From assembly GCA_030158675.1 (NCBI GenBank), contig JAOASL010000016.1, positions 1 to 58,512 on the forward strand: a DNA stretch of 58,512 bases. The letters are read 5' to 3'. The notes under the pieces were generated by a model. The model was given only the letters and a program-made list of their open reading frames with translations. It did no database searches and was not told where the DNA came from. This document shows, in pieces, positions 1 to 12,762 of this stretch. A program made the translations under genes and the position numbers. The stretch is from Burkholderiaceae bacterium. Lineage in GTDB: Bacteria > Pseudomonadota > Gammaproteobacteria > Burkholderiales > Burkholderiaceae_D. Numbering within the stretch: position 1 is the first letter of the stretch; each line of letters begins with the position of its first letter.

Positions 1-1
1 T

Positions 2-246
2 ATGAACATCCTGTTTGTCCATCAGAATTTTCCCGGGCAGTTTAAATTTCTGGTGCCGGAGCTGGCACAACAGGGTCATCAGGTCAGTGCGCTGACGATG
101 CGTAAAGTCGATGGGCCGGCCTGCTGGCCGATGCGGATGCCCTTCAGCGACTGGGACGGAATGCCCGCGTATTCGCGCGCAGCCAATACGATCTGCAGAC
201 GGTATGCCTGCCGGCGCAGTTGAAGTGGGTGCAGTCGCTGTCGTAG
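2..246 (+). pseudogene. Glycosyltransferase family 4 remnant, internally deleted
   Basis: The first ~37 codons from the ATG at 2 read as a glycosyltransferase N-terminus (MNILFVHQNFPGQF, then a GHQVSALTMRK strand). From about 121 a different frame reads a typical glycosyltransferase C-terminus (LADADALQRLGRNARVFAR, ending in WVQSLS) and stops at 246. A normal family member is roughly 400 residues, so the middle ~300 codons are gone and the two ends are joined out of frame. The literal ATG frame runs to 223 but is nonsense after the junction near 115-121. The gene is therefore dead. It sits just beyond the 3' end of the type I secretion operon, and with the sugar-transferase-like gene at 7562 it suggests a decayed polysaccharide locus. 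Family assignment rests on the two end motifs. Confidence 0.75.
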
Positions 247-280
247 CAGGCAACGACAGCAAAGCGGGGCAAGTCCTTGA

Positions 281-316
281 GATCAGGCCGAATCGCCGCA
301 CGGGCGACCCGGCCTG
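281..316. terminator. Possible hairpin terminator between convergent remnants
   Basis: Nested inverted repeats AGGCCG (285-290) with CGGCCT (310-315), and TCGCC (293-297) with GGCGA (303-307), lie between the glycosyltransferase remnant and the convergent 3' end of the hlyD-type gene. No T-run follows on either strand, so this is a structured spacer and only possibly a terminator. Confidence 0.25.
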
Positions 317-327
317 TGGCACTCAGA

Positions 328-1695
328 TCACTCTTCCTTCATCGCTGCCGCAATACGCTTGGTCAGCGGATGCAGCAGATAGGTCAGCAGCGAGCGCTCA
401 CCGGTCTTGATCAGTACTTCCGCATTCATGCCCGGTTGCAGATGGCGGTCGCCGAGTTTCTTGAGGCCTTCCGGAGTCAGGCTGACGCGCGCCAGGTAGT
501 ACGACACTGTGCCGCCGGGGCCCTGCTCGGACACGACATCGCTGGAGATCGAGTTGATCTTGCCGTCGACGACCAGCTGCGGCGAATTGGCGAACGCGGA
601 GAAGCGCACGGCCACCGGATCGCTGGCGCTCACGCGGTCGATCACCTGAGTCGGTACACGTGCTTCCAGTACCACGCCTTCTTCGTTCGGCACGATGTCC
701 ATCAGTTTCTGGCCGGGGGTGGCGACGCCACCGATTGATGCGATCGCGATACCCACGACCTGCCCGTCGACCGGTGCCTTGATCTTTACGCGGCCGAGTT
801 CCGCAGTCATTGCGGCCAGTTTTTCACTGCCCGCCTGCACTTCGCGGCGAACGTCGGCAAGTTGGGCAGCGACTTCTTTCGTGCCATCGGTCTGCCGAAG
901 CGCCTTGCGCAGTTTGATCTCGGCAATCGTGCGCTCGGTGCGTGACTTCGACCCATTCAGATCAGCCAGGGTTGCGCTCAATTCTGCTTGCTGCTGTTCC
1001 AGCATCAGCAGCTGGTTGCGCGGCACATAGCCGTCAGCCGCGAGGTCGGCGATATTCTTGAGTTGCTCATTGAGCTTTTGTGCTTGCACCTTGCGGTTTT
1101 CCAGTTGCAGCCGGGTGCCTGCCAGCAGCGCTTCCTGCCCGGCGATGGATTCGTCGAATGCGGCCAGTTCGCTGCGCAGCGACGCACGGCGTGACTGAAA
1201 CAGCTGCGTTTGCGTGACGATATGCTGCCTGATCACGGGGTCGTGATCGGCAGCGAGCAGGTCCGGGTGATAGCTAATGCTGTCGCGACGCTCCATTTCG
1301 GACAACAGCCGGCTTTCTGCGGCGCGTTGCCCCATATAGTTCTGGCGCACCGTTTCGAAGTTTGCACGGGTCGCGCCATCGTCCAGCTCGATCAGCAGGT
1401 CGCCCGCCTTGACGCGCTGGCCTTCGCGCACCGCGACCTGACTGATGATGCCGCCGTACTGGTGCTGTATCGCCTTGCGCTTGGTATCGATAGTGACCGT
1501 GGCGGTGGCCGGCACGCCTTCGTCGAGCGGCGCGTAGGCCGCCCAGGCGAGGAAGCCGCCGAAGCCGATGACTAGCGCGATAAAGCCCAGACGTATCGTC
1601 GAGCGGGTGTCGGTGGGAAGGTCCGGGGTCAGTTCGACCACGTTGGTGGCGTCGCTGGCATTCTGCTTCGAGAGCCGGAGCGGGGTGTTCTTCAT
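328..1695 (-). CDS. Type I secretion periplasmic adaptor (HlyD/PrtE family)
   Basis: A 455-residue membrane-fusion protein linking the inner-membrane ABC exporter to the TolC-type outer-membrane channel. One N-terminal membrane segment (about residues 34-56) is followed by the first half of a lipoyl/barrel-sandwich domain (HQYGGIISQVAVREGQRVKAG). Then come a long coiled-coil hairpin rich in Glu, Gln, Leu and Arg (about 90-290), the second lipoyl half (KIKAPVDGQVVGI) and a C-terminal beta domain. An AAGGAAA ribosome-binding site precedes the ATG. It is the last gene of the operon, 14 nt after the second ABC gene. The length is normal for the PrtE/PrsE group. The secreted substrate is not encoded in this window. 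Confidence 0.93.
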   Translation of the reverse strand: MKNTPLRLSKQNASDATNVVELTPDLPTDTRSTIRLGFIALVIGFGGFLAWAAYAPLDEGVPATATVTIDTKRKAIQHQYGGIISQVAVREGQRVKAGDLLIELDDGATRANFETVRQNYMGQRAAESRLLSEMERRDSISYHPDLLAADHDPVIRQHIVTQTQLFQSRRASLRSELAAFDESIAGQEALLAGTRLQLENRKVQAQKLNEQLKNIADLAADGYVPRNQLLMLEQQQAELSATLADLNGSKSRTERTIAEIKLRKALRQTDGTKEVAAQLADVRREVQAGSEKLAAMTAELGRVKIKAPVDGQVVGIAIASIGGVATPGQKLMDIVPNEEGVVLEARVPTQVIDRVSASDPVAVRFSAFANSPQLVVDGKINSISSDVVSEQGPGGTVSYYLARVSLTPEGLKKLGDRHLQPGMNAEVLIKTGERSLLTYLLHPLTKRIAAAMKEE

Positions 1696-1709
1696 AGTGT
1701 CTTTCCTTG

Positions 1710-3437
1710 TCAGCTGGCGGCGGGTGCCTGGGCGATTTGCCCGGCGGTGCCGCCGATGTCGATTTTTCCGAATTGGGCGATGCGTCCGTCAGCCATCACG
1801 ACGACGCGGTCGGCGAGCGCCAGCAGGTTACGCTGGTGCAGCACCATAAAGATGGTCTTGCCTTCTGCCTTCAGGTCAACGATGGCGCGGGCCAGGGCAG
1901 CCTCGCCGAGCTCGTCGAGGTTGGCATTGGGTTCGTCGAGCACGACGACGTCCGGCGATCCATAGATGGCGCGGGCCAGCGCAAGCCGCTGGCGCTGGCC
2001 GCCGGACAGCAGCCGGCCGGCCTGGCCGACCGGGGTGTCGTAGCCCATCGGCAGGCGCAAGATCATGTCGTGGATATCGGCACGCCGAGCCGCATCGATG
2101 ACGGCATCGGAATCAACCTCGGTGAAGCGGCAGATATTTTCAGCGACCGTTCCGTCAAAAAGCTCGATGTCCTGAGGCAGGTAGCCGAAGTGAGGGCCAA
2201 GCTCATCGCGTGACCAGTCGCGCAGGTTGACACCGTCGAGCAGCACCTGTCCTGTAATGTGCGGCCAGATGCCGAGCAGGCAGCGCGCAAAGGTGGACTT
2301 GCCGGCGCCTGACGGACCGACGATGCCGATGACTTCGCCAGCCTCGAACTCGATATCGATCTTGTCGAGGATCGGGGCTTTTCTTTGCGGTGCGGTGGCA
2401 GACAACTGGCGCACAGTGACCTGGCCTTTGACCTCACCCGCCATATGGCTGGGCGAGCGTTCCGGATATTGGTCGAGCAGTTTGCCGATCTCGCTGTAGG
2501 CCTGCTTGGCCTGGCCGTACTCCTTCCAGGTGCTGACCAGCACGCTGATCGGGCGCAGTGCATTGCCCATCAAGACATTCGATGCAACCATCGCGCCCAT
2601 CGTCAGTTCGCCGCGGATCGCCAGCCACGCACTGAGCGCGAGGATCAGCGATTGCTGGCTGTACTGCACGAATTTCGTGAAGGCGCCGGCCTTGGTGGCG
2701 CGGTCTTGCGCCTGCCAGTGCGCGTTCGCATGTTCGCGGTAGAGCAGCAGCCAGCGCCGCTTCAGGTTGCCGAGCATCCCCAGTGCATGAACCACCTCGG
2801 CATTGCGCAGCTTGCCGGCCAGGTAGGTCGTGGTGTCGCCTTCGGCAGAGGTCGCTTGTGCCAGCTTTTTGGAGGTCAGCTTGCTGTTCAGGAAGGCGAA
2901 AAGCGCGAGCAGCAGGGTGAAACAGATCCCGAACAGTCCCAGTAGCGGATGCATCGCATACAGCACCGCCAGATAGATAGGTGTCCACGGAAGGTCGAAC
3001 ATCGCGATCACGCCGTTCCCGGTCAGGAATTGCCGCAGGCGGGTCAGCGATGAAAAGGTGTTCACGTTATCGCCACGTGACTGTTCGAGGTTGGCTTCGA
3101 AGTTGGCGTGGAAGATGCGCGTATTGAGCTGCTCATCGAAACGAACGCCGGCGCGAACCAGCAGGCGTGAGCGGATCCATTCGGTGAAGGCCATCACCCC
3201 GACGAACAGCGCGGTGACCAATGTTAATCCGATGAGCGTCAATTCGCTCTGGCTGAGCATGACGCGATCAAAGATCTGCAGCATGTACAGCGTTGGCGTC
3301 AGCGTCAGCAGGTTGGCGATCAGGCTGAACACGCCGACCCAGATCAGCTCTTTGCGGAAGGACAGCAGCATCGTCGTCAGCGACGGCAGCGAGGCGGGAT
3401 TCTGCTGCGCGTTATTGGGAAGCGCGAGCGGCGTCAT
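1710..3437 (-). CDS. Type I secretion ABC permease/ATPase, second of a tandem pair (PrtD-like)
   Basis: A 575-residue half-exporter with an N-terminal membrane domain (about residues 1-310) fused to a nucleotide-binding domain. The ATPase motifs are intact: Walker A GPSGAGKS (~372), signature LSGGQRQR (~476), Walker B VVVLDEPNANLDE, and a switch His in MVLHQR. There is no N-terminal C39 peptidase domain, so the substrate should be an RTX-type protein with an uncleaved C-terminal signal, as known for the PrtD family. The start overlaps the stop of the preceding ABC gene by 4 nt (ATGA), implying translational coupling. Both ABC proteins have complete ATP sites and may form a heterodimer, which is inference. 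Confidence 0.93.
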   Translation of the reverse strand: MTPLALPNNAQQNPASLPSLTTMLLSFRKELIWVGVFSLIANLLTLTPTLYMLQIFDRVMLSQSELTLIGLTLVTALFVGVMAFTEWIRSRLLVRAGVRFDEQLNTRIFHANFEANLEQSRGDNVNTFSSLTRLRQFLTGNGVIAMFDLPWTPIYLAVLYAMHPLLGLFGICFTLLLALFAFLNSKLTSKKLAQATSAEGDTTTYLAGKLRNAEVVHALGMLGNLKRRWLLLYREHANAHWQAQDRATKAGAFTKFVQYSQQSLILALSAWLAIRGELTMGAMVASNVLMGNALRPISVLVSTWKEYGQAKQAYSEIGKLLDQYPERSPSHMAGEVKGQVTVRQLSATAPQRKAPILDKIDIEFEAGEVIGIVGPSGAGKSTFARCLLGIWPHITGQVLLDGVNLRDWSRDELGPHFGYLPQDIELFDGTVAENICRFTEVDSDAVIDAARRADIHDMILRLPMGYDTPVGQAGRLLSGGQRQRLALARAIYGSPDVVVLDEPNANLDELGEAALARAIVDLKAEGKTIFMVLHQRNLLALADRVVVMADGRIAQFGKIDIGGTAGQIAQAPAAS

Positions 3438-5206
3438 GCGGCACCTCCGGCGACCTGGGCCGGCGCAGCGGCCGATGGGGTGGCCGGTATTGCCCGGGGG
3501 GTAGTCGCTTTGCGCAATGCGGCCAGCACCTCGTCACGCGGGCCGAACGCCGCCACCTGGCCATCGCGCAGCGCCAGGATCTTGTCTGCGGCCGGCAGCA
3601 CGCTGGCTCGGTGGGTAATGACGATGGTGGTGCACTTGCGTGATTTCAGGAACATCAGGGTATTCATCAGGGCTTGTTCACCAGCCTCGTCGAGGCTGGA
3701 ATTGGGTTCATCGAGAAGCACGAAATTCGGGTTGCCATAGATGGCGCGCGCCAGACCGACGCGTTGTCGCTGACCGCCGGACAAGGTCGCGCCTTCTTCA
3801 CCGATCAGGGTGTCGAATCCGTTCGGCAATGCGTTCACCATCGCGGTCAGCCCGACCAGTTCGGTTGCGGTCTTCACTTGGTCGAGGTCGACATCGCTGA
3901 AGCGGGCGATGTTTTCGGCGAGGGTGCCGTCAAACAGTTCTACCGTCTGCGGCAGGTAGCCGAGATGCGGCCCGAGTTCGTCCTTGTCCCAGGCGTGCAG
4001 GTCCGCGCCATCGAGACGTACCTTGCCGGAGAGCGTCGGCCAGATGCCCATCAAGACGCGCGCGAGCGCCGTCTTGCCTGCGGCGGACGGCCCGATCAGC
4101 ATCAGGGTTTCGCCCGGCTGCAATGCGAAGCTCACTCCCTTGATGATCGGCAGGTTCGTGCCAGGCGCCGGCGCGACGACGCCTTCGACGGACAGGCGAC
4201 CTACGGGTGCCGGCAGCGACATTGGCTTGTGCTCTGACGGGCCGGTACCGAGGAACTCGTCGAGACGGCGATAGGAGTCGCGGGCGTTGACGACGGTACG
4301 CCACTGCGCTACCAGCTGCACCAGCGGCGTCAGCACCCGGCCGCCGAGCGTGGACGCAACGATCATCAGGCCGCCGCCGCCGAGCAGATGGCCTTTCACG
4401 CTCAGCCAGCACGACAAGCCGAGAATCAGCGAGCCTTGCATGGTCTGGATAAACTTGGACGCGGCCGAATTGGTGCCGGCGGTATCCGACGCGGACGCCT
4501 GCAGTCTGAGGAAGGTGCGCTGGCGAGAAATCCAGCGCTGGTAAATGCTGTCGCGCATGCCCATCGCCGAGATCACCTGGGCATTGCGCAGCGCGCCGCT
4601 GGCGTATGACTGCGCCGAGATGGCCGCCTGATTGGCCTCGGTCAGCACCGGTACGGTCTTGCGCTCGGTACTGAGACCGATCAGGAACTGCACGACCGCA
4701 CCAAACAAGGCCGCCAGGCCGAGCAACGGGTTGATGATGGCAACGATGATCAGAAATATCAGCGAGGACGGCAGGTCCATCATCGCCGTGATCGCCGGCG
4801 ATCCAATGAATTCACGCACGGTGCGCAGGTCGGTGAAAGGCTGGGTCGAGCCGGCGCCATAACGCAAGCTGGCCGAAAATGCCGCATCGTGAATGTGTTC
4901 GCGCAGGGCCGCGTCGATGCGCCAGCCTGCCTGCTGCAACAAGCGGCTGCGCAGCACATCCATCACTTCCATCAGGAGGTAGGCACCGATCACGCACAAG
5001 AGCAGCGACACCAGGGTGACGCCGCTGCGGCTGGTGACGGCCCGGTTGTAGACTTCGAGCATGAAGAGGGTCGGCGCCAGTACCAATACGGTATTGGCGA
5101 GGCCAAATGTGAGCACCTTGCGGAAGATCGGCATTTGCGCCCGGATGGTTTTTCCCAGCAGCGGGGCGACCTGCTGGCTTGCCGTGTTTGGCGGCTTGGT
5201 AGTCAT
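3434..5206 (-). CDS. Type I secretion ABC permease/ATPase, first of a tandem pair (PrtD-like)
   Basis: A 590-residue half-exporter, paralogous to the gene that follows it. The N-terminal membrane domain begins after about residue 25. The nucleotide-binding domain has Walker A GPSAAGKT (~368), signature LSGGQRQR (~474), Walker B VLLDEPNSSLDE and a switch His in VITHRAS. No C39 peptidase domain is present. The C-terminus carries a Pro/Ala-rich tail absent from the partner. Its start overlaps the stop of the upstream orphan gene by 4 nt and its stop overlaps the next ABC start by 4 nt, so three genes appear translationally linked. Type I systems usually use one such gene as a homodimer. Two in a row is less common and worth noting. 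Confidence 0.93.
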   Translation of the reverse strand: MTTKPPNTASQQVAPLLGKTIRAQMPIFRKVLTFGLANTVLVLAPTLFMLEVYNRAVTSRSGVTLVSLLLCVIGAYLLMEVMDVLRSRLLQQAGWRIDAALREHIHDAAFSASLRYGAGSTQPFTDLRTVREFIGSPAITAMMDLPSSLIFLIIVAIINPLLGLAALFGAVVQFLIGLSTERKTVPVLTEANQAAISAQSYASGALRNAQVISAMGMRDSIYQRWISRQRTFLRLQASASDTAGTNSAASKFIQTMQGSLILGLSCWLSVKGHLLGGGGLMIVASTLGGRVLTPLVQLVAQWRTVVNARDSYRRLDEFLGTGPSEHKPMSLPAPVGRLSVEGVVAPAPGTNLPIIKGVSFALQPGETLMLIGPSAAGKTALARVLMGIWPTLSGKVRLDGADLHAWDKDELGPHLGYLPQTVELFDGTLAENIARFSDVDLDQVKTATELVGLTAMVNALPNGFDTLIGEEGATLSGGQRQRVGLARAIYGNPNFVLLDEPNSSLDEAGEQALMNTLMFLKSRKCTTIVITHRASVLPAADKILALRDGQVAAFGPRDEVLAALRKATTPRAIPATPSAAAPAQVAGGAA

Positions 5207-5925
5207 GCGACTTCTCCCAATTCTTTGACTTGATCGGTCGCGCCCTCGTCGAGCAGGACCACATATTCGGGTAATTCAGCCTTTGCTGCAGTTGCCTTTG
5301 CTGCAGTTGCCTTTCGGACAGGCGGTTCTGCGTCGTCGCCCTCGGCAGCAAACACGAAGCGCAACAGGAACTGGTCACTCTGGCTAAGCAGCAGGATTTC
5401 GCGCAGCCGCTCCTGCCGGAAACGCTGCTCATCGGCTTCGCTGATACTGAGTCGGAAGCGGATCCTGCCGTCGAGTGTCAGCATCGATACGATGCCGTTG
5501 CGGATGCTGAGCGTGTGCCGGTCGAAAAAGACCGGGGCATCCGCAGCAAAGCGCATCTGCGGCAGCGGACGCTCACCCAGCCGCGCGATATTGAGCGGAC
5601 TGGCGGGCGACTGGAAAATGATGCGGCAAGTGCGTGATACCAGGTGGATCGCATTGCAGATCATCTGAGAGCCCAGCTGCGGGAAGCGCTCGCGCAGGCT
5701 GCGGTACACCAGATGGTGTAGCGCGACGCGGTTCCAGCAGCGGGTTGCCCGCATCGTCGGTTCGATCGCATTGCAGACATCGGCGAATGCCTGCTGCAGC
5801 TGTTTCAGCTGGGCGGCAATGGCTGGCGGTGCATCCAATGGGATGGACAACGGTTTGGGCGTGCGCGCTTTCTTGCCGGGGGCGCGCTTCGGCGGCTCGC
5901 GGGGGACGACTGGTTTGGGTTGCAT
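5203..5925 (-). CDS. RuvC-less TnpB N-terminal-like protein inside a type I secretion operon
   Basis: A 240-residue protein with no obvious role in secretion. Residues 41-104 are helical and carry a CN(x)11WN motif, ALHHLVYRSLRERF and LGSQMICNAIHLV. Residues 128-195 are beta-rich and read FFDRHTLSIRNGIVSMLTLD then GRIRF. Both blocks follow the pattern I know from the N-terminal half of IS605/IS1341-family TnpB proteins (LxKLVYxxLRExFxLSAQMxxxAI, then PYDxRxLSxxxxxVSLxTLxGR). The catalytic RuvC and zinc-ribbon half is absent, so it cannot be an active nuclease. The N-terminus is basic and Pro-rich (1-35), and the tail has an ATAAK duplication (206-215). It lies 41 nt after tolC and overlaps the first ABC gene by 4 nt. 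Homology to TnpB is from motif recall; the function is unknown. Confidence 0.7.
   Translation of the reverse strand: MQPKPVVPREPPKRAPGKKARTPKPLSIPLDAPPAIAAQLKQLQQAFADVCNAIEPTMRATRCWNRVALHHLVYRSLRERFPQLGSQMICNAIHLVSRTCRIIFQSPASPLNIARLGERPLPQMRFAADAPVFFDRHTLSIRNGIVSMLTLDGRIRFRLSISEADEQRFRQERLREILLLSQSDQFLLRFVFAAEGDDAEPPVRKATAAKATAAKAELPEYVVLLDEGATDQVKELGEVA
5281..5310. repeat. Perfect 15-bp tandem duplication within the TnpB-like gene
   Basis: The unit ctttgctgcagttgc occurs twice in a row (5281-5295 and 5296-5310) and encodes the repeated Ala/Thr/Lys linker of the TnpB-like protein. Being in frame, it changes only linker length. Such units can vary in copy number between strains. Confidence 0.8.
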
Positions 5926-5966
5926 TGTTGGTGCGATCTGCTTTCTCTGAAGGTATCGGCCGGAAT

Positions 5967-7352
5967 TTATGGACGCGCTTCAAAGCAGATTGCGATCTTG
6001 CCAAGATCCTCGCCTGACAGCATGCCAGCGGCGGCGTGCAGCTTCAGGAAGGCCAACAGATAGCCATGGCGCGCTTCGGACAGGTCGCGCCGCGACGTGT
6101 AAAGCTGCTGCAGCGCGGTCAGTACATCCAGGTTCACGCGCTGGCCACCGGCGACACTTTTGCGGGTCGCTTCTACCGCCTCGGCTGCAGAGCGCACCGC
6201 CTGTTCCATTGCGGCCATCCGGATGCGGCCGCTCTTGACCAGCTGAAATTGCTTGCGGACCTCGACGAGGGCTTTTTGCAAGGCCGAGTCATAACCGGCC
6301 TGGCCCGCGCCGAGGCGAGCGGCGGCTTGCCGCGTCTGCGCGTTCACGCTGCCACCGCTGTAGATCGGCAGTGTCAATTGCACGCCGATTGAGTTGACTG
6401 TCGACTCCTGGTTGAAGGTGAACAGCGAGTCGGACGTATTCTTGCTGTGCGAAGCGATCAGATCGACACGCGGATAGTGGCCGGCACGGGTGCGTTCCAC
6501 TTCAGTTCTGGAGTACTCCACGGAGTGGCGCTGCGCACGCACATCCGGATTGCCTGCCGTTGTGATGGCCTCCCATTCCGCCAGCGTTTCCGGTGCCAAT
6601 TTCAGTTCCGGCATGATCGCTGCCAGTGTATCGAGTGCTCCGGGATCGCCGCCGACGATCACGGCCAGTTCGTCTCGGCGATTTTTTACGACGTCTTCTG
6701 CTTCAAGCACGCCCGCCTGAGCCACTTCAAAGCGCGCACGGGTTTCAAGCACGTCGGTGCGCGTGCCCGCTCCTTTTTCAAACATGTTCTGGTTGGCGAT
6801 CTGGTTCTCTTGGTAGGCATCGCGCTGAGCTGTCGCCAGCCGCAACTGGTCTTCAGCCAGCAGCGCTGCTAGGTAGGCAGTGGTCAGTCGATCAATCAGG
6901 TCTTGCGAATCACCGGCGAATTTGGCCTCACTGAAGCCATATTGCTCCTTGCTGCCTTTGTAGCGCTGCCAACCGTCGAGGTTGAACAATGGCTGTCGCA
7001 CCTGTATCGTCGCGACTTTGCTGGTGTACTGCGGGTTATCTTTCTGCTCGGTGCCATTGGCCGCCGTGATGGTGCGGCTTGCGTCGTTTTTGCTGTGGTT
7101 GTACGAGGCCGAGACGCTGGGCAGCAGGTTGGCAAGGCCCAGCGCTTCGTATTCATCGCCTGCCGCCCGGTTATAGCGGGCGCCCTGGAACGTCGGGTCT
7201 TTTTCAATGGCGGTCTGGTAAGCATCCATCAGGCTCAGTGCATGGCTTGGCAGAGGCGCAGCGACGGCGGCGATCAGTGCGGCGATCACTTTGAGTTGCG
7301 GAGTAAGGCGCTTGGCGGGTCGAATCGACCGTTTTACGAAGTAAAGTGGCAT
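5967..7352 (-). CDS. TolC-family outer-membrane channel of the type I secretion system
   Basis: A 461-residue outer-membrane efflux protein. From the ATG at 7352 there is a basic n-region (KRSIRPAKR), a hydrophobic core and an SHA cleavage site before LSLMDAYQ, the usual mature start of TolC homologues. Two tandem outer-membrane-efflux repeats follow, with the characteristic helix starts YQTAIEKDPTFQGARYN and FEKGAGTRTDVLETRARFEV. An upstream in-frame start at 7490 exists, but it would place about 46 extra residues ahead of the signal peptide and would cover the regulatory site, so I reject it. It is the first gene of the secretion operon and probably sets its promoter. No strong ribosome-binding site is visible, so the start is moderately sure. 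Confidence 0.92.
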   Translation of the reverse strand: MPLYFVKRSIRPAKRLTPQLKVIAALIAAVAAPLPSHALSLMDAYQTAIEKDPTFQGARYNRAAGDEYEALGLANLLPSVSASYNHSKNDASRTITAANGTEQKDNPQYTSKVATIQVRQPLFNLDGWQRYKGSKEQYGFSEAKFAGDSQDLIDRLTTAYLAALLAEDQLRLATAQRDAYQENQIANQNMFEKGAGTRTDVLETRARFEVAQAGVLEAEDVVKNRRDELAVIVGGDPGALDTLAAIMPELKLAPETLAEWEAITTAGNPDVRAQRHSVEYSRTEVERTRAGHYPRVDLIASHSKNTSDSLFTFNQESTVNSIGVQLTLPIYSGGSVNAQTRQAAARLGAGQAGYDSALQKALVEVRKQFQLVKSGRIRMAAMEQAVRSAAEAVEATRKSVAGGQRVNLDVLTALQQLYTSRRDLSEARHGYLLAFLKLHAAAGMLSGEDLGKIAICFEARP

Positions 7353-7424
7353 GAGATGGCTGGAATGTTTGAATTGTTTTACTGCCGGAATGCTAACCTG
7401 ACGCGTTGATTTGATGGTGCAAAT

Positions 7425-7460
7425 TGCCGTGCATATATGAAGTTCCGAACTGTAGGTGGC
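7425..7460 (-). promoter_or_regulatory. Candidate promoter of the type I secretion operon
   Basis: A TATATG/CATATA hexamer at 7432-7439 (read on the minus strand) lies upstream of tolC. The transcription start it would give is near 7425, placing the TGTGA-N6-TCACA site about 59 bp upstream, close to the classic class I activator position. No good -35 box is visible, which fits an activator-dependent promoter. This is inference. Confidence 0.35.
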
Positions 7461-7475
7461 GGCGTTGATCGATAT

Positions 7476-7491
7476 TGTGATGGCCGTCACA
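7476..7491. promoter_or_regulatory. Perfect CRP-type binding site TGTGA-N6-TCACA
   Basis: TGTGATGGCCGTCACA matches the consensus of the CRP/Vfr/Clp branch of the CRP-FNR family perfectly in both half-sites. It sits alone in the 209-bp divergent spacer between tolC and the sugar-transferase-like gene, about 124 bp from the tolC ATG and 71 bp from the other start. Which CRP-family protein binds, and whether the effector is cAMP, cannot be told from the sequence. Confidence 0.6.
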
Positions 7492-7561
7492 TTTTGGTGT
7501 CCGTGGTGGTGCGGTTAGCGTTCTGCCCTCGCACGATTATTTTTGAGCGCCGGAGACCGCA

Positions 7562-8182
7562 TTGAAAACTGAATTGACCATGAAACGAACCGCTGACCTC
7601 GTGCTGGCCGCGCTGATCGGCCTGATTTTGCTGTTGCCGTCACTACTGGTCGCGCTGCTGCTGAAGCGCGATGGCGGGCCGGTATTGGTGCGGCCGCATC
7701 GTGTCGGTCGCAATGGCCGCATGGTGAAAGCTTTTGAATTCCGCACGGCGATATCGGCGCCGGGTGCCATGGAGACGGTGGGCGGTTGCGAAGGCGAGCA
7801 CGTCACGCCGCTCGGGGCGCTGCTGCGCCGTACCGGCATCGTGCGCTGGCCAATGTGGTTGAGTGTGTTGCGAGGCGATTTCAGTGTGGTTGGCCCGCGC
7901 GCCGAAATGCCACGCTATGTCGGTTGCTATCCCACGGATATTCGCAAGCGTGTTCTGTCGATCAAGCCGGGCCTGATTGATCTGGCGACGGTGGAATTCC
8001 GCGATGAGCAGCGGCTGCTGCAAGGTCTGGAGGGCGAAGCGCTGGAGACGGCGTATCTGGAGAAGGTACTGCCGTTACGGCTCGATTATGCGCAGCGTTA
8101 TATCGAGCGGCGTGGTTTTGCTACTGATCTCGGTATTTTGCTGCGTACGCTGATGTTGCCCCTTCGAGGCTGTAGAGCCTGA
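7562..8182 (+). CDS. Sugar-transferase-like protein lacking the catalytic Asp-Glu dyad
   Basis: A 206-residue protein of the bacterial sugar transferase family (small phosphoglycosyl transferases such as PglC and the C-terminal half of WcaJ). It has one N-terminal membrane helix (about 11-35), then HRVGRNGRMVKAFEFRTA, a variant of the family's RVGRNGxxFxxYKFRTM, and SVLRGDFSVVGPRAEMP. In family members the segment before xVLxGD reads TxxDELPQL, with the DE pair catalytic. Here it is TGIVRWPMWL, so residues 94-95 are Val-Arg. The protein is probably inactive as a transferase. I chose the TTG start at 7562 because GGAG lies 6 nt upstream; an ATG at 7580 is the alternative. It is divergent from the secretion operon across a CRP-type site. 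Confidence 0.85.
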   Translation: MKTELTMKRTADLVLAALIGLILLLPSLLVALLLKRDGGPVLVRPHRVGRNGRMVKAFEFRTAISAPGAMETVGGCEGEHVTPLGALLRRTGIVRWPMWLSVLRGDFSVVGPRAEMPRYVGCYPTDIRKRVLSIKPGLIDLATVEFRDEQRLLQGLEGEALETAYLEKVLPLRLDYAQRYIERRGFATDLGILLRTLMLPLRGCRA

Positions 8183-8202
8183 CGGGACAGGCTCTACAGC
8201 CT
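8167..8202. repeat. Perfect 15-bp inverted repeat spanning a stop codon
   Basis: AGGCTGTAGAGCCTG (8167-8181) pairs perfectly with CAGGCTCTACAGCCT (8188-8202) across a 6-nt loop. The repeat encodes the last residues and part of the stop codon of the sugar-transferase-like gene. No T-run follows, so it is not a standard terminator. It could be a REP-type element or an mRNA-stabilising stem. Confidence 0.85.
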
Positions 8203-8228
8203 GTCGTTCGCTGCGATGCCTGAAAAAC

Positions 8229-8262
8229 AAAGGCCGCCCATCGGGGCGGCCTTTGTTTTGGG
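8229..8262. terminator. Bidirectional intrinsic terminator
   Basis: An 11-bp perfect stem (aaaggccgccc 8229-8239 with gggcggccttt 8244-8254) and a 4-nt loop lie between convergent genes. T-rich tracts follow on both strands (tttgtttt on plus; tttgttttt on minus), so it should end both the sugar-transferase-like gene and hns. Confidence 0.9.
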
Positions 8263-8274
8263 GTACGGCAGATA

Positions 8275-8586
8275 TCAGGCGGCGTTCGTGATCAGGAACT
8301 GAGCCTTGTCACGGCCGGCCATCCACTTCGGTGGCTTGCCGCGGCCACTCCAGGTTTCACCGGTCGTATGGTTGCGATATTTCGGTGCCACCGGGCGGCG
8401 CGTGGCCTTCACCGGCTTGCGCTTGGCGCCGCCGGCACCGATGCCCAGGTCTTCCGGCGAAATGCCATATTCATTCATCTTCGCGTGAATTTCTGCAATC
8501 GCTGAAGAGATCTCATTGCGTCGTGCCTGTTCAGCTTCCTTTTGCAGCTTTTCAATTTGACTTTGCAATTCTTTGTAAGTCGTCAT
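8275..8586 (-). CDS. H-NS family nucleoid-associated protein
   Basis: A 103-residue nucleoid protein expected to bind and silence AT-rich DNA. The N-terminal half is a charged coiled coil for oligomerisation (about 1-40, KELQSQIEKLQKEAEQARR). The C-terminal domain has YRNHTTGETWSGRGKPPKWM, the DNA-binding loop of betaproteobacterial H-NS proteins of the BpH3/Bv3F type; the residues between are a basic linker (KRKPVKATRRP). The ribosome-binding site AGAGGAAT precedes the ATG. It is monocistronic, with its own promoter and a shared terminator. Sitting beside a decayed polysaccharide/secretion region it could silence that region, but this is only a suggestion. Confidence 0.95.
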   Translation of the reverse strand: MTTYKELQSQIEKLQKEAEQARRNEISSAIAEIHAKMNEYGISPEDLGIGAGGAKRKPVKATRRPVAPKYRNHTTGETWSGRGKPPKWMAGRDKAQFLITNAA

Positions 8587-8658
8587 GGTATTCCTCTATT
8601 AATAGGGTTGCAGATGGTCAAGGGCTGCCGGAAAACGGTCGCCAGCACCAGCCGGCGA

Positions 8659-8686
8659 ATTATATGCGAAGTATTAAAAATGTGAA
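8659..8686 (-). promoter_or_regulatory. Promoter of the H-NS gene
   Basis: On the minus strand, TTCACA (8681-8686) and a perfect TATAAT (8659-8664) are 16 nt apart, giving a start near 8652 and a leader of about 65 nt. Confidence 0.65.
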
Positions 8687-8756
8687 TGTGTCAGCACACT
8701 AATAATTCACGTGATTATGCAAACGCATGATTTTAAAGAATTTTATCTAAATCATG
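8682..8756. promoter_or_regulatory. Inverted repeats upstream of the H-NS gene (candidate operator)
   Basis: GTGAAT (8682-8687) and ATTCAC (8705-8710) enclose GTGT-cagc-ACAC (8687-8698) and overlap the -35 box. Further upstream CATGATTT (8726-8733) mirrors AAATCATG (8749-8756). The stretch is clearly more AT-rich than its surroundings, the kind of DNA H-NS proteins bind, so autoregulation is plausible but not shown. Confidence 0.4.
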
Positions 8757-9214
8757 TTAGTTTTGAGAAACATGTGTTTCGACCCTGACGGCTTGCGCAA
8801 ATGATTTTCGGCCAATTGATCCAAGTGATTTCCTGCAAGCCTGAGTCGACTCCGGATTTTTTCATTGCATGTGCCGGATGCCATTGATCTTCATTCAATC
8901 TGGTGCGGTTTTTTCACAGGCAATGCACGCCGATTGGGAATGCATGTATTACCTGATGACGACCCAAGTCCATGGGACTTTGCGGCGACGGGAGATAACG
9001 GCGGTCGGTTGATTAGCGTGATTACGCGTTGTGCCGGCAAAGCCGGGCACGGAGATAATCCCGGGCTGGGCCGTCCGGCCTGAAATGGCACGCTGGCCTG
9101 GAATGCTGCGGCTTCATTTACGGCGAGCGGTTGTGACCGAGCCGGCGTGCCAGCCGGATGCCGGGGGTAAGCGATGCGTGCCGGTGTCTGCAGTCTGCGG
9201 TAATGGCGAGGCGT
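8757..9214. other. Non-coding stretch between pth and the H-NS promoter region
   Basis: About 460 bp between the 3' end of pth and the H-NS upstream region. Short open frames exist on both strands (for example 8865-9083 plus and 8891-9091 minus), but they have no ribosome-binding sites and no recognisable domains. I see no RNA gene, repeat or terminator that I can support. Confidence 0.5.
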
Positions 9215-9811
9215 TTAATTCTTGCCGGAGCCGCTGCTGTGCAGCGTCATCATGGCTTGCTCGTGGCGCCCCTCGCATAACAGCGGGATCACGTTGAGGG
9301 CCTTGTCGATCGCCTGGTCGATCTGCGTTTGTTCTTCAGCGCGCGGTCGGTGCAGCACAAAATCCACCACTGCCTGCTGCAGCTTCAGTTCGCGCGGGTG
9401 GCCGATGCCGATTCGAAGTCGCCAGTAGTCCTGCGTGCCGAGCGCAGCAGTGATGTCCTTGAGCCCGTTGTGGCCACCCGAGGAGCCGCCCATTTTCAGT
9501 TTCGCAGCACCGGGTGGCAGGTCGAGTTCGTCATGTACGACCAGCACTTCGTCCGGGGCGATTTTGTAAAAGCGCGTAATAGCGCCGACGGATTGTCCCG
9601 AGCGATTCATGAAGGTCTGTGGCTCAAGCAGCCAGACCTCATTGCCGCCGATCCGTGTTTTGGCGGCCAGCGCGTTGAAGCGCGCTTCCTTGCGCAATTC
9701 ACCACGCGCGAGCTGGTCGATCAGCCAGAAGCCGGCATTGTGCCGGGTCAGTGCGTATTCGGCGCCCGGATTGCCGAGGCCGACGATCAGGCGGATAGGT
9801 GCGCTGGACAT
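9215..9811 (-). CDS. pth: Peptidyl-tRNA hydrolase
   Basis: A 198-residue enzyme that releases tRNA from prematurely dropped peptidyl-tRNA. Family motifs are all visible: LIVGLGNPG near the N-terminus, the catalytic His in TRHNAGF, Asn in FMNRSG, Asp in [11 protein letters not shown], and [11 protein letters not shown] start it at the ATG at 9811, six residues before LIVGLGNPG; a TTG at 9829 would add six residues but has no better ribosome-binding site. It follows rplY on the same strand with an intrinsic terminator between them, so it may depend on read-through or its own promoter. The prs-rplY-pth order is standard in Burkholderiales. Confidence 0.96.
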
Positions 9812-9900
9812 GGAAGTGTTGTCGGTCAAAAGTCGCGGTCAAAAACCGCAATCAAACTATCGCAATGAATAAGCCCGATTATCAGGGATGGCATGCGCGT

Positions 9901-9930
9901 AAAAAAGCCCGCCGCAAGGACGGGCTTTTC
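9901..9930 (-). terminator. Intrinsic terminator after rplY
   Basis: A stem of aaaagcccg (9903-9911) and cgggctttt (9921-9929) lies just beyond the rplY stop codon. Read on the minus strand it ends in a T6 run. Confidence 0.8.
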
Positions 9931-9949
9931 GTTGCTGACGCAAAGAGGA

Positions 9950-10546
9950 TTACTTCGCCTCTTCGCCTTCAGCTGCATCCGCCTTCGCGCCACGCGGAAT
10001 GACCGCGGTAGCGATGGTCGGATTCTCTTTCGCGTGCACGGCGGCGACGCCGGCCGGCAGCTTCAGGTCGGCCACGTGGAAAGACGCGCCGTCGGTCATG
10101 TTCGACAGGTCGACCTCGATGAACTCCGGCAGATCCTTCGGCAGGCAGCTGACGTCGAGTTCATTCAGGACGTGGCTGATCACGCCGCCGGACAGCTTCA
10201 CGACCGGTGCGATATCGGCGTTGATGAAGTGCAGCGGCACTTTCACGTGCAGCTTGGCGTTCGGATCGACGCGCTGGAAATCGATGTGCAGCACCAGTTG
10301 CTTGTAGGCGTGCACCTGGAAGTCGCGCAGCACGACCTTCTCGCTCTTGCCATCGATTTTCATGTCGAGGATGGACGAGTGGAACGCTTCTTTCTTCAGC
10401 GCGTGGTACAGCGCATTGTGGTCAAGCGAGATCGCGACCGGCGTTTCGGTGCCACCGTAAACGATGCCCGGTGTCTGACCCGCACGGCGCAGGCGGCGGC
10501 TCGCTCCGGACCCCTGCTCGGTACGTGGGAATGCAATAACTTCCAT
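9950..10546 (-). CDS. rplY: 50S ribosomal protein L25, long (Ctc) form
   Basis: A 198-residue L25/general stress protein Ctc that binds 5S rRNA in the large subunit. The N-terminal L25 domain contains [20 protein letters not shown] and the C-terminal Ctc (TL5-type) domain reads from about residue 95. The C-terminal Glu/Ala tail ([12 protein letters not shown]) is typical of the proteobacterial long form. It is transcribed after prs and before pth. A terminator-like stem follows prs 60 nt upstream, so some independent initiation is likely. Confidence 0.96.
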
Positions 10547-10606
10547 GATGACTCCTGTGGCGGGCTTGCGCCCTGAGGTGAATGTCCCCCGCGACCAGGG
10601 GACATG

Positions 10607-10633
10607 AAAAAGGGCGTCGCTATCGCGTCGCCC
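10607..10633 (-). terminator. Intrinsic terminator after prs
   Basis: A stem of gggcgtcgc (10612-10620) and gcgtcgccc (10625-10633) with one mismatch and loop tatc is followed on the minus strand by a T5 run (10607-10611). It sits ten bases after the prs stop codon. Confidence 0.65.
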
Positions 10634-10642
10634 CGAAATTGT

Positions 10643-11608
10643 TTAGCCTGCTGCCTCGTCTTCTGCGAACAGCGACATCACCGAATCGCCCTTGCTGATG
10701 CGGCGGATGGTCTCGGCCAGCAGTGGCGCACAGCTCAGCTGGCGGATCTTGCCGCAAGCCTTGGCGGCGTCGCTCAGCGGGATGGTGTTGGTGACGACCA
10801 GTTCGTCGAGCGGCGATTTCTGGATGCGCTCGATCGCCGGGCCGGACAGTACCGGATGCGTACAGTAGGCCACAACTTTCTTCGCGCCACGCTCCTTGAG
10901 CACTTCGGCCGCCTTGGTCAGCGTGCCTGCGGTGTCGACCATGTCGTCCATGATCACGCAATTGCGGCCGTCGACTTCACCGATAATGTGCATCACTTCG
11001 GACACGTTGGCCTTCGGCCGGCGCTTGTCGATGATCGCGAGGTCGCAGCCGAGCTTTTTTGCCAGCGCGCGCGCGCGCACCACACCGCCAACATCGGGCG
11101 ACACCACCAGCAGATCTTCGTAGCTTTTTTTGACGAGATCTTCGAGCAGTACCGGCGATGCGTAAATGTTATCGACCGGGATGTCGAAGAAGCCCTGGAT
11201 CTGGTCTGCGTGCAGGTCCATGATCAGCACGCGGCCGACGCCGACATCCTGCAGCATGTTGGCCACCACCTTGGCCGAGATTGCGACGCGCGCCGAGCGC
11301 GGGCGGCGATCCTGGCGCGCATAGCCGTAGTACGGCAGCACGGCGGTGATGCGGCCGGCCGACGCGCGCTTGAGCGCATCGACCATCAGCATGATTTCCA
11401 TCAGGTTGTCATTGGTCGGCGCACAGGTCGACTGCAGCACGTACACGTCCTTGCCGCGCACGTTCTCGTTGATTTCGACCATGATCTCGCCATCGGAGAA
11501 TCGGGTGACGACCGCTTTGCCGAGCGGGATACCGATCTGCTGTGCGACACCTGCGGCAAGTTCCGTGGTGCCGGTGCCGGTGAAGACCATCAGGTTCTCG
11601 TGGGCCAT
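10643..11608 (-). CDS. prs: Ribose-phosphate pyrophosphokinase
   Basis: A 321-residue PRPP synthetase making 5-phosphoribosyl-1-pyrophosphate from ribose-5-phosphate and ATP for nucleotide, His and Trp synthesis. The N-terminus reads [12 protein letters not shown]. The flexible catalytic loop ([19 protein letters not shown]), the metal-binding [12 protein letters not shown] and the PRPP loop [13 protein letters not shown] are all present. The open frame extends 53 codons further upstream, but MAHENLMVF at 11608 is the normal start and the upstream part overlaps a terminator. It follows tRNA-Gln and precedes rplY. Confidence 0.97.
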
Positions 11609-11680
11609 GGTTGCTGAATTACCTAGGGTTGTAAAAGCCGAGTCGATCGGGCGAGGCGTCATGCGCGGTCTCTCAGATCG

Positions 11681-11715
11681 AAAAACGCCTGCGGCTCGGT
11701 AGAGCATCGCAGGCG
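11681..11715 (-). terminator. Intrinsic terminator downstream of tRNA-Gln
   Basis: An 8-bp perfect stem, CGCCTGCG (11686-11693) with CGCAGGCG (11708-11715), is followed on the minus strand by a T5 run (11681-11685). It separates the tRNA gene from prs. Confidence 0.75.
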
Positions 11716-11777
11716 GCGTTCGGCTTTTATTACGTTTTGTCGGGGCTTGCGGCAATTTTGCCGGCAAGCCGATTTAA

Positions 11778-11854
11778 TGGCAGGGGAACAAGGATTCGAA
11801 CCTTGGAATGCCGGAATCAAAATCCGGTGCCTTAACCAACTTGGCGATTCCCCT
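11778..11854 (-). tRNA. tRNA-Gln (anticodon TTG)
   Basis: Read on the minus strand it has the acceptor arm AGGGGAA/TTCCCCT, a D arm, the anticodon stem-loop CCGGATTTTGATTCCGG with anticodon TTG, a TTCGAAT T-loop and an encoded CCA (77 nt with CCA). The identity is glutamine. It lies 41 nt after ispE. No integrase or attachment-site duplication is next to it. Confidence 0.95.
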
Positions 11855-11895
11855 ACGCAACCTGTTGTCCGGCCGATCGGTCAGACGAATTCATA

Positions 11896-12762
11896 TTACG
11901 ACAACAACAGCGGAGCCAGCGGGTGAGCATCCAGCGTCCTGGTTTTCCAGCTGCGCCATTGGGATGGCACTTGCCGAAACACCGTCTCCGCATCGCTTTC
12001 CGATGCAAAGGCAGCAAACACACAGGCACCGGAGCCGGTCATCCGTGCATCACCATGGTCCGACAGCCATTCGAGGGCGTCTGCGACCGGAGGAAATGCG
12101 TGGGCGGCTACTGCTTGCAAGTCGTTTTTCCCAAACACCGGGAGGCGACTGGAAAAGTCCGATATTTTGATGGGTTTGGTGTTCCGTGTCAATTCGTTTG
12201 ATTGAAAAATTACCGGCGTCGGTACCGGGATGCCCGGATGAATCACGACAAACCACGCCTGCGGGGTCGTGATCGAGGTCAGCCGCTCGCCGATTCCTTC
12301 CACAAAGGCATTCTGCCCGAGCAGAAAGAACGGCACATCCGCTCCCAGTTGCAAGCCCAGTTGCATCAGCTCGGCGCGGTGCAGACCGGTCTGCCAAAGA
12401 TGGTTCAGCGCGATCAGCGCGGTGGCCGCATCCGACGACCCGCCGCCAATGCCGCCGCCCATTGGCAGATGCTTGTCGATGGCGATGTCGGCACCCGGCA
12501 CAGTCATGCCGCGCCCGGCGGCGGCGGCCTGCAGCAGCCGGGCTGCGCGCATGGTCAGGTCGGAATCGGCCGGCACACCGGCAATATCGGTCGTACGCAC
12601 GAGCGCACCATCGTCACGCAAGTCGAAGTGCAGTTCGTCACGCAGATCGATCAGCTGAAATACCGACTGCAGCAGGTGATAGCCGTCGTCACGCCGGCCG
12701 GTTACGTGCAGGAACAGGTTCAGCTTGGCTGGCGCCGCGCAGTGATGCAACGAAGTCTGCAC
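11896..12762 (-). CDS. ispE: 4-diphosphocytidyl-2-C-methyl-D-erythritol kinase
   Basis: A 288-residue GHMP kinase phosphorylating CDP-methylerythritol in the non-mevalonate isoprenoid pathway. It has [19 protein letters not shown] at the N-terminus, the ATP-binding loop [14 protein letters not shown] (about 100-113) and the C-terminal [12 protein letters not shown] glycine loop. The start is a GTG, 3 nt after the lolB stop codon. The lolB-ispE-tRNA-Gln-prs order is the usual one in this bacterial group. Confidence 0.96.

Follow-up and report, generated by a model that had tools for sequence, protein, structure and literature searches.

A TnpB-derived protein consisting of the WED and REC lobe accompanies type I secretion operons and may be a protein-only regulator of them

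TnpB is the ancestor of CRISPR-Cas12, and the target of an IS200/IS605 element, which lies directly 5' of its left end, serves as the TAM. To our knowledge, the known domestications of TnpB (TldR and Cas12) all keep an RNA guide. The TldR proteins are the nearest described thing to the protein reported here, which we call TnpBN. As far as the consulted sections of the TldR report go (PMC13418256), the two have in common derivation from TnpB, an expected lack of nuclease activity, a location beside non-transposon genes and, as a prediction in the case of TnpBN, probable control of transcription from a promoter that contains a TAM. In the same sections, TldR proteins contain an inactivated RuvC that is still present, and a guide RNA is encoded next to the gene, whereas in TnpBN RuvC is absent altogether, no guide RNA was seen and the likely target is its own operon. 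TnpBN was not classed as a TldR protein because neither a mutated but present RuvC nor an adjacent guide RNA was found; it may nevertheless work in part like TldR. With TnpB of the IS200/IS605 elements, for which we drew on part of the ISDra2 account (PMC10097598), TnpBN shares the WED and REC lobe and a motif starting with TTCAT, the inferred target of related elements, but no RuvC, zinc finger, element ends or reRNA/omega-RNA were found. The REC lobe of Cas12f (type V-F), another RNA-guided nuclease, gave no phmmer sequence match to TnpBN. In the openly accessible literature searched, we found no account of a TnpB lacking RuvC within a secretion operon, nor of a TnpB that binds its own operator.

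We analysed a stretch of 58,512 nucleotides (G000:C15, referred to as the window) from a bacterial genome of 3.0 Mb in 49 contigs. The minus strand of the window carries an operon in the order tolC, 240-aa gene, two PrtD-type ABC genes and hlyD, with the following features.

7432..7441, minus strand: TTCATATATG, a putative operator upstream of the operon; the probable tolC start (ATG at 7349) follows after about 92 nt
5967..7490 as listed ORF, minus strand: tolC-type outer membrane channel, first gene of the operon (TIGR01844, 3.4e-95)
5203..5925, minus strand: TnpBN, 240 aa with an ATG start, a TnpB protein with the REC lobe only; residues 22-195 predicted to be WED and REC, no RuvC
3434..5206, minus strand: PrtD-type ABC exporter 1, overlapping the TnpBN stop codon (TIGR01842, 9.8e-183)
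1710..3437, minus strand: PrtD-type ABC exporter 2 (TIGR01842, 1.8e-192)
328..1695, minus strand: HlyD-type adaptor (TIGR01843, 8.9e-102)

The start of tolC at 7349 was judged by eye from the position of the signal peptide. A gap of 41 nt separates the end of tolC (5967) from the TnpBN gene, whose stop codon shares an ATGA with the start codon of the first ABC gene. Gene coordinates, the distance to tolC and the stop-start coupling were thus all as given in the original prediction, on the minus strand. The ABC, HlyD and TolC components of type I secretion are all present in the window at scores above the curated NCBIfam cut-offs, as in PrtD/HlyD/TolC operons; unlike in those, an extra TnpB-lobe gene lies immediately before the ABC gene, and it is absent from the orthologous operons of five congeners. 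An H-NS-type gene (8275-8586, minus strand) and a divergent sugar transferase gene (7562-8182, plus strand) flank the operon, and in the TnpBN-less congeners L106 and L108 genes of both types lie on the same contig as the ABC genes.

The window protein showed no match to Pfam or NCBIfam at E<=1 and none to PADLOC, and a phmmer search of the PDB returned a single chance match (E 1.1). The A2 profile had no PDB match at E<=0.1, and in a Pfam scan of 12 family members the best match of any was to one unrelated family (E 0.075); the TnpBN family, as scanned in these 12 members, is without a Pfam entry. Because the family libraries were blind to the protein, its TnpB ancestry was visible only via relatives in whole genomes. 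A survey of 195 genomes at the family level gave a match in five and yielded three congeners and one distant relative, L005. The latter (L005:1504-2646) encodes a complete TnpB of 380 aa from the same bacterial family (Pfam TNB 7e-24, OrfB_IS605 4e-10), which aligned to residues 27-155 of the window protein with 41% identity over 129 aa (E 8e-22) and matched the L006 orthologue with E 1e-23. Eight TnpBs from viral contigs matched the window protein with E 3e-34 to 4e-27, the closest, a phage TnpB, with up to 45% identity over 132 aa (E 3e-34). With the full L005 TnpB as the query, the TnpBN gene was the only match at E<=1 in the window's genome. Together with the predicted fold, these matches to complete TnpBs bear out the claimed origin: the 240-aa gene is TnpB-derived.

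The predicted fold of TnpBN matched residues 3-175 of the ISDra2 TnpB chain, which make up the WED and REC lobe; by this model, the fold is that of the REC lobe only (WED plus REC). All 14 family members are 198-245 aa long and end before RuvC, with its catalytic D-E-D, and the RuvC half of a TnpB found no match in the family loci or in the window's genome, which agrees with the earlier statement that this half is completely missing. The TNB zinc finger was absent from the window protein and the 12 members scanned with Pfam. Transposon ends, whose absence had also been claimed, were represented in the window by nothing more than chance-like matches to the ends of two related TnpB elements (15 nt, E 0.22; 37 nt, E 0.61). 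In the portion of the ISDra2 account used here (PMC10097598), the TAM duplex sits in the cleft between WED and REC and the RNA scaffold on WED and RuvC, so that the part retained in TnpBN corresponds to the DNA-reading part.

TnpBN was found in 14 genomes, of which 13 belong to one order and one lies outside it (G886). The genus survey detected it in 6 of 21 genomes. In the order survey 17 of 399 genomes had a match at E<=1e-3, and eight of these had the short form; of the other nine matches, the five inspected were full TnpBs or cut-off copies, and four were weak (G215, G351, G483 and G581). Two of 369 genomes in the class survey matched at E<=1e-30, one of them being G886. The window's genome was present in all three surveys, and the total of 14 is without double counting. 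An exporter ABC gene like that of the window follows TnpBN directly in 14/14 genomes, a stable association with non-transposon genes that upholds the predicted fixation in a secretion locus. HlyD follows in 13 of the 14, and the L008 contig ends before the hlyD position. The position of tolC varied: it precedes TnpBN in the window, L006, L008, L047 and L049, comes after hlyD in L046, L048, L050, L051 and L139 (with a weak match in L045), and is found behind a divergent RTX gene in L009, L010 and L053. Homologues are therefore not always placed between tolC and the ABC pair, and what stays constant is the place of TnpBN immediately before the first ABC gene. One ABC gene, rather than two, was seen after TnpBN in L048 and L139.

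A single branch (support 98/96; recovered in 99% of 200 bootstrap trees) separated the 14 short proteins from 13 TnpB lobes in a tree of both, which fits a single origin in this unrooted tree, in which L139 has a long branch. The dN/dS of the three least diverged TnpBN pairs was 0.053, 0.060 and 0.064 (dS 0.49, 1.03 and 0.95), compared to 0.022 for ABC1 of the first of these pairs, and that of the remaining pairs was 0.09-0.45 at dS of about 0.9 to 2.7. TnpBN is thus under purifying selection.

Comparison of upstream regions revealed TCCTATATGA (other strand TCATATAGGA) in inverted arrangement or as two or three copies 12, 14 or 16 bp apart, and the DNA motif TTCATATAGG or TTCATATATG is present upstream of all 14 TnpBN operons. 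The TTCATATATG version occurs in the window, L006 and L051; three operons and L139 have ATATG in place of ATAGG. The motif was defined on 13 of the 14 loci, with some gene starts estimated, and L139 was found after its definition by the protein profile alone and bears the motif over its start codon. The form TCATATA[GT]G was found within about 400 bp upstream of the operon in 14/14 loci with TnpBN and in 0/5 orthologous operons without it (7 regions; congeners with ABC1 at 58-70% identity), with a shuffle probability of 0-0.0125 per region. The five TnpBN-less loci overall contained only three one-mismatch matches, all behind the operon start, and in L107 tolC adjoins ABC1 with nothing between. 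Gene and motif are linked in all loci examined, and the TnpBN family can be recognised by protein and motif together. A conserved motif in the upstream region of its own operon, linked to the gene itself, is one feature of an autoregulatory DNA-binding protein, and the occurrence at 14/14 operons against 0/5 without the gene supports the option of an operon regulator put forward in the original prediction.

The motif in tandem was detected in 4 of 399 genomes of the order, in all four at the TnpBN operon (backwards control, 0), and in none of 20 genomes of the class; the other four TnpBN genomes of the order draw contain inverted (G206, G433), palindromic (G467) or single (G000) sites. Of the 35 matches to TTCATATAKG in the 14 whole genomes, 26 lie at the operon, with two palindromes counted once per strand, and the backwards control returned 0 in all 14. 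Eight of these genomes, the window's included, have no TTCATATAKG away from the operon, and TTCATATA[GT]G has one match in the 3.0 Mb of the window's genome, at this operon. A wider regulon was considered and rejected, as the nine off-operon matches in the 14 genomes were all single; six lie inside long frames, none was seen to precede a TnpB or exporter gene, and no shared function was apparent (frames judged by eye). Copies at the operons are spaced 12, 14, 16 or 35 bp apart in both orientations, which is an unusual freedom for one dimeric repressor, and the first base of the motif varies (CTCAT or ATCAT copies in L053, L045, L115 and L116). The motif overlaps the TnpBN start codon in L045, L046, L050, L051 and L139. 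In L050, TATAAT lies between two inverted copies, the second of which is over the start codon (by eye), so that a bound protein would cover the polymerase site (overlap judged by eye); in a sigma-70 promoter scan of L050 no promoter passed.

The motif was also present at the start codon in 8 of 10 distinct tnpB genes from viral contigs (L111, L112, L114-L116, L118, L119 and L121, with L113 and L117 lacking it; L120, a copy of L119, was left out), genes that are non-independent since most were found with L114 as the query. Most of these copies are located close behind a TATnnT-like box. The start codons of viral-contig tnpB genes that bear the motif look leaderless. None of nine bacterial tnpB starts carried the motif (two starts uncertain), giving 8/19 overall. 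At tnpB starts the motif is in part constrained anyway because ATGAA is partly coding (Met-Lys), a constraint from which the secretion-operon copies, which lie outside start codons and in both orientations, are free. When viral contigs were scanned for the motif with a -10 box and a Met-Lys start, three of 15 matches were tnpB (contigs of L111, L119 and L120) and the remaining 12 were short chance frames or an unrelated gene, which indicates that a single motif alone is not specific; in tandem, the motif had no match in viral contigs. It is possible that TnpBs control their own expression via the start-codon motif.

The first five bases of the motif, TTCAT, are the likely TAM of related elements. 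At the left edges of related TnpB elements, TTCAT was found right after the variable flank at 11 of 12 readable edges (6/7 in G223, the seventh being truncated; 2/3 in G350, the third being masked; 3/3 in G297), and the twelfth, a left-end-like stretch in G252, has ATCAT. Three viral elements start with (N)TCAT (by eye). Given that IS200/IS605 targets occupy this position, the motif resembles a TAM followed by about five bases, and the first base varies in both. A search for an empty site that would prove TTCAT as the target had no match in nine congeners of G223, and the TAM assignment therefore rests on the constancy of the left edges.

REC helices 2-3 (residues 62-97) were the best kept region between the short proteins and TnpBs (cross-identity 0.61-0.62; row L113 was left out of the table), with W64, R66, L69, H70, Y74, R78, L84-Q87 and C90 nearly fixed. 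The WED helix and the last strands were poorly kept (0.06-0.15) and changed from net positive in TnpBs to net negative in the short proteins. In the part of the ISDra2 account drawn on here (PMC10097598), five of the seven TAM-reading residues lie in REC (Y52, S56, K76, F77 and Q80). Helices corresponding to most of the TAM-reading part are preserved in TnpBN, an agreement at the level of helices, since the seven residues cannot be mapped one by one onto the window protein. Conservation of REC helices 2-3 and not of the WED helix and last strands is the pattern expected if DNA reading was retained and RNA holding lost. The charge of the whole protein is -2 to +4 in 12 of 14 members (window, +8.9; L051, +10.1), compared to +7 to +15 for TnpB REC lobes. 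The lower charge fits a loss of RNA binding and could also mean a loss of DNA binding.

We consider it probable, from sequence comparisons, that TnpBN is a protein-only, TAM-reading autorepressor of its secretion operon; the kept DNA-reading helices, the lower charge and the TATAAT between inverted copies in L050 led us to commit to this reading. The WED and REC lobe of a TnpB would have persisted as a TAM reader after loss of the nuclease half and would bind DNA sequence-specifically with no need for a guide RNA. The sites recognised would be TTCATATA(G/T)G, that is, the TTCAT target motif of TnpB relatives and about five more bases, occurring singly, in tandem or as inverted copies at the promoter of the type I secretion operon to which TnpBN belongs. 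TnpBN would control the operon from there, most likely by blocking RNA polymerase (autorepression). We infer that TnpBN itself binds the motif, needs no RNA, and represses rather than activates. The site was probably inherited, as related phage tnpB genes bear the motif over their own start codon. We give an even chance to the broader proposal that the REC lobe alone is an RNA-free reader of TAM and flank, that phage TnpBs control themselves with it, and that cells captured the lobe together with its operator.

A TldR-like repressor guided by an RNA encoded in trans, with the seed AUAGGA beside a TTCAT TAM, would instead make the 11-nt motif a TAM plus a 6-nt seed. In the consulted sections of the TldR report (PMC13418256), silencing depends on seed nucleotides 1-6, and since TTCAT with six conserved bases is also what a TAM and such a seed would leave, we keep this alternative, as an unlikely one. 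TnpBN lacks the RuvC surface on which most of the scaffold is held, however, the WED helix and last strands have lost both conservation and positive charge, and the ATATG variant departs from the proposed seed. No ATAGGA occurs beyond the operators in L009, L010, L046, L047 and L049 (9.5-17 kb each), and the stretches of the remaining loci have 0-2 scattered copies. The best match of the right ends of two related elements near the genes was 27 nt (E 0.018, L010), Rfam at gathering scores reported only a tRNA in window 1-12000, and in eight viral TnpB elements the sequence that follows the right end (placed by eye) starts with something other than ATAGGA. The searches by Rfam (window 1-12000), right-end homology (two elements) and ATAGGA scan thus gave no guide RNA (reRNA/omega-RNA) candidate in the loci. 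TnpBN could also be a secretion accessory without nucleic-acid function, for example an ABC exporter adaptor, with the motif belonging to another regulator. The invariant position beside the ABC gene and the loss of positive charge would suit such a role, which we nonetheless regard as unlikely too: all five orthologous exporter operons that have no TnpBN also lack the motif, and 8 of 10 tnpB genes from viral contigs (exporters were not searched among their neighbours) carry it, so that it follows the TnpB lobe and not the exporter; within the protein, REC helices 2-3 hold the residues that are kept best. Control of translation by binding of RNA on the operon mRNA would explain why several copies overlap a start codon, as in viral tnpB genes, but copies in both orientations and away from start codons (e.g. 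L008, L047, L048 and L049) are hardly allowed for an RNA site, and the part of WED presumed to face the RNA shows no conservation, which makes this reading very improbable. The evidence speaks more for a protein-only regulator that reads DNA than for one that is guided by RNA (TldR-type) or binds RNA.

There is a fair chance that the protein-only regulator proposed for TnpBN differs in mechanism from known TnpB-derived regulators. Here only the DNA-reading lobe survives, together with a site whose first bases are the likely TAM, and part of an RNA-guided nuclease appears to have turned into an ordinary DNA-binding gene switch. If binding is true, this would be a new route from an RNA-guided nuclease to a plain transcription factor, would provide a compact DNA reader of about 175 residues that descends from a nuclease, and would hint that TnpBs control their own expression through the TAM. 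If the lobe reads the TAM without RNA, TAM reading would be an ancient DNA-binding function that can stand by itself, and PAM reading by Cas12 would go back to it.

Several TnpBN secretion operons are accompanied, after hlyD or before TnpBN, by genes of a second small family, whose proteins in L009 and L010 have 168-184 aa and no Pfam match at E<=0.1. In addition, RTX/DUF4214 proteins, one with a trypsin-like domain, adjoin the operon in L009, L010 and L053 and are likely cargo; DUF4214 had no match in the window's genome.

L009:762-1316, minus strand: second small family member
L010:1913-2419, minus strand: second small family member
L053:4875-5411, minus strand: second small family member
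L047:10819-11346, minus strand: second small family member
L045:4136-4621, plus strand: second small family member
L009:6981-8006, plus strand: RTX/DUF4214 gene
L010:8186-9211, plus strand: RTX/DUF4214 gene
L053:11059-12081, plus strand: RTX/DUF4214 gene
L010:526-1893, minus strand: RTX/DUF4214 gene
L053:3494-4186, minus strand: RTX/DUF4214 gene

FecR-like, CHASE2/adenylate-cyclase-like and Crp-like genes adjoin the orthologous operon in L006 (727-5172; by eye). Among the complete TnpBs, that of G162 (L011:5944-7086) lies between conjugation (tra)-like genes (by eye), and the phage TnpB elements L115:3001-4155, L116:2751-3905 and L121:3001-4155 have diverse 3' flanks after a GTTAC end (by eye), which are probably different guides in related viruses.
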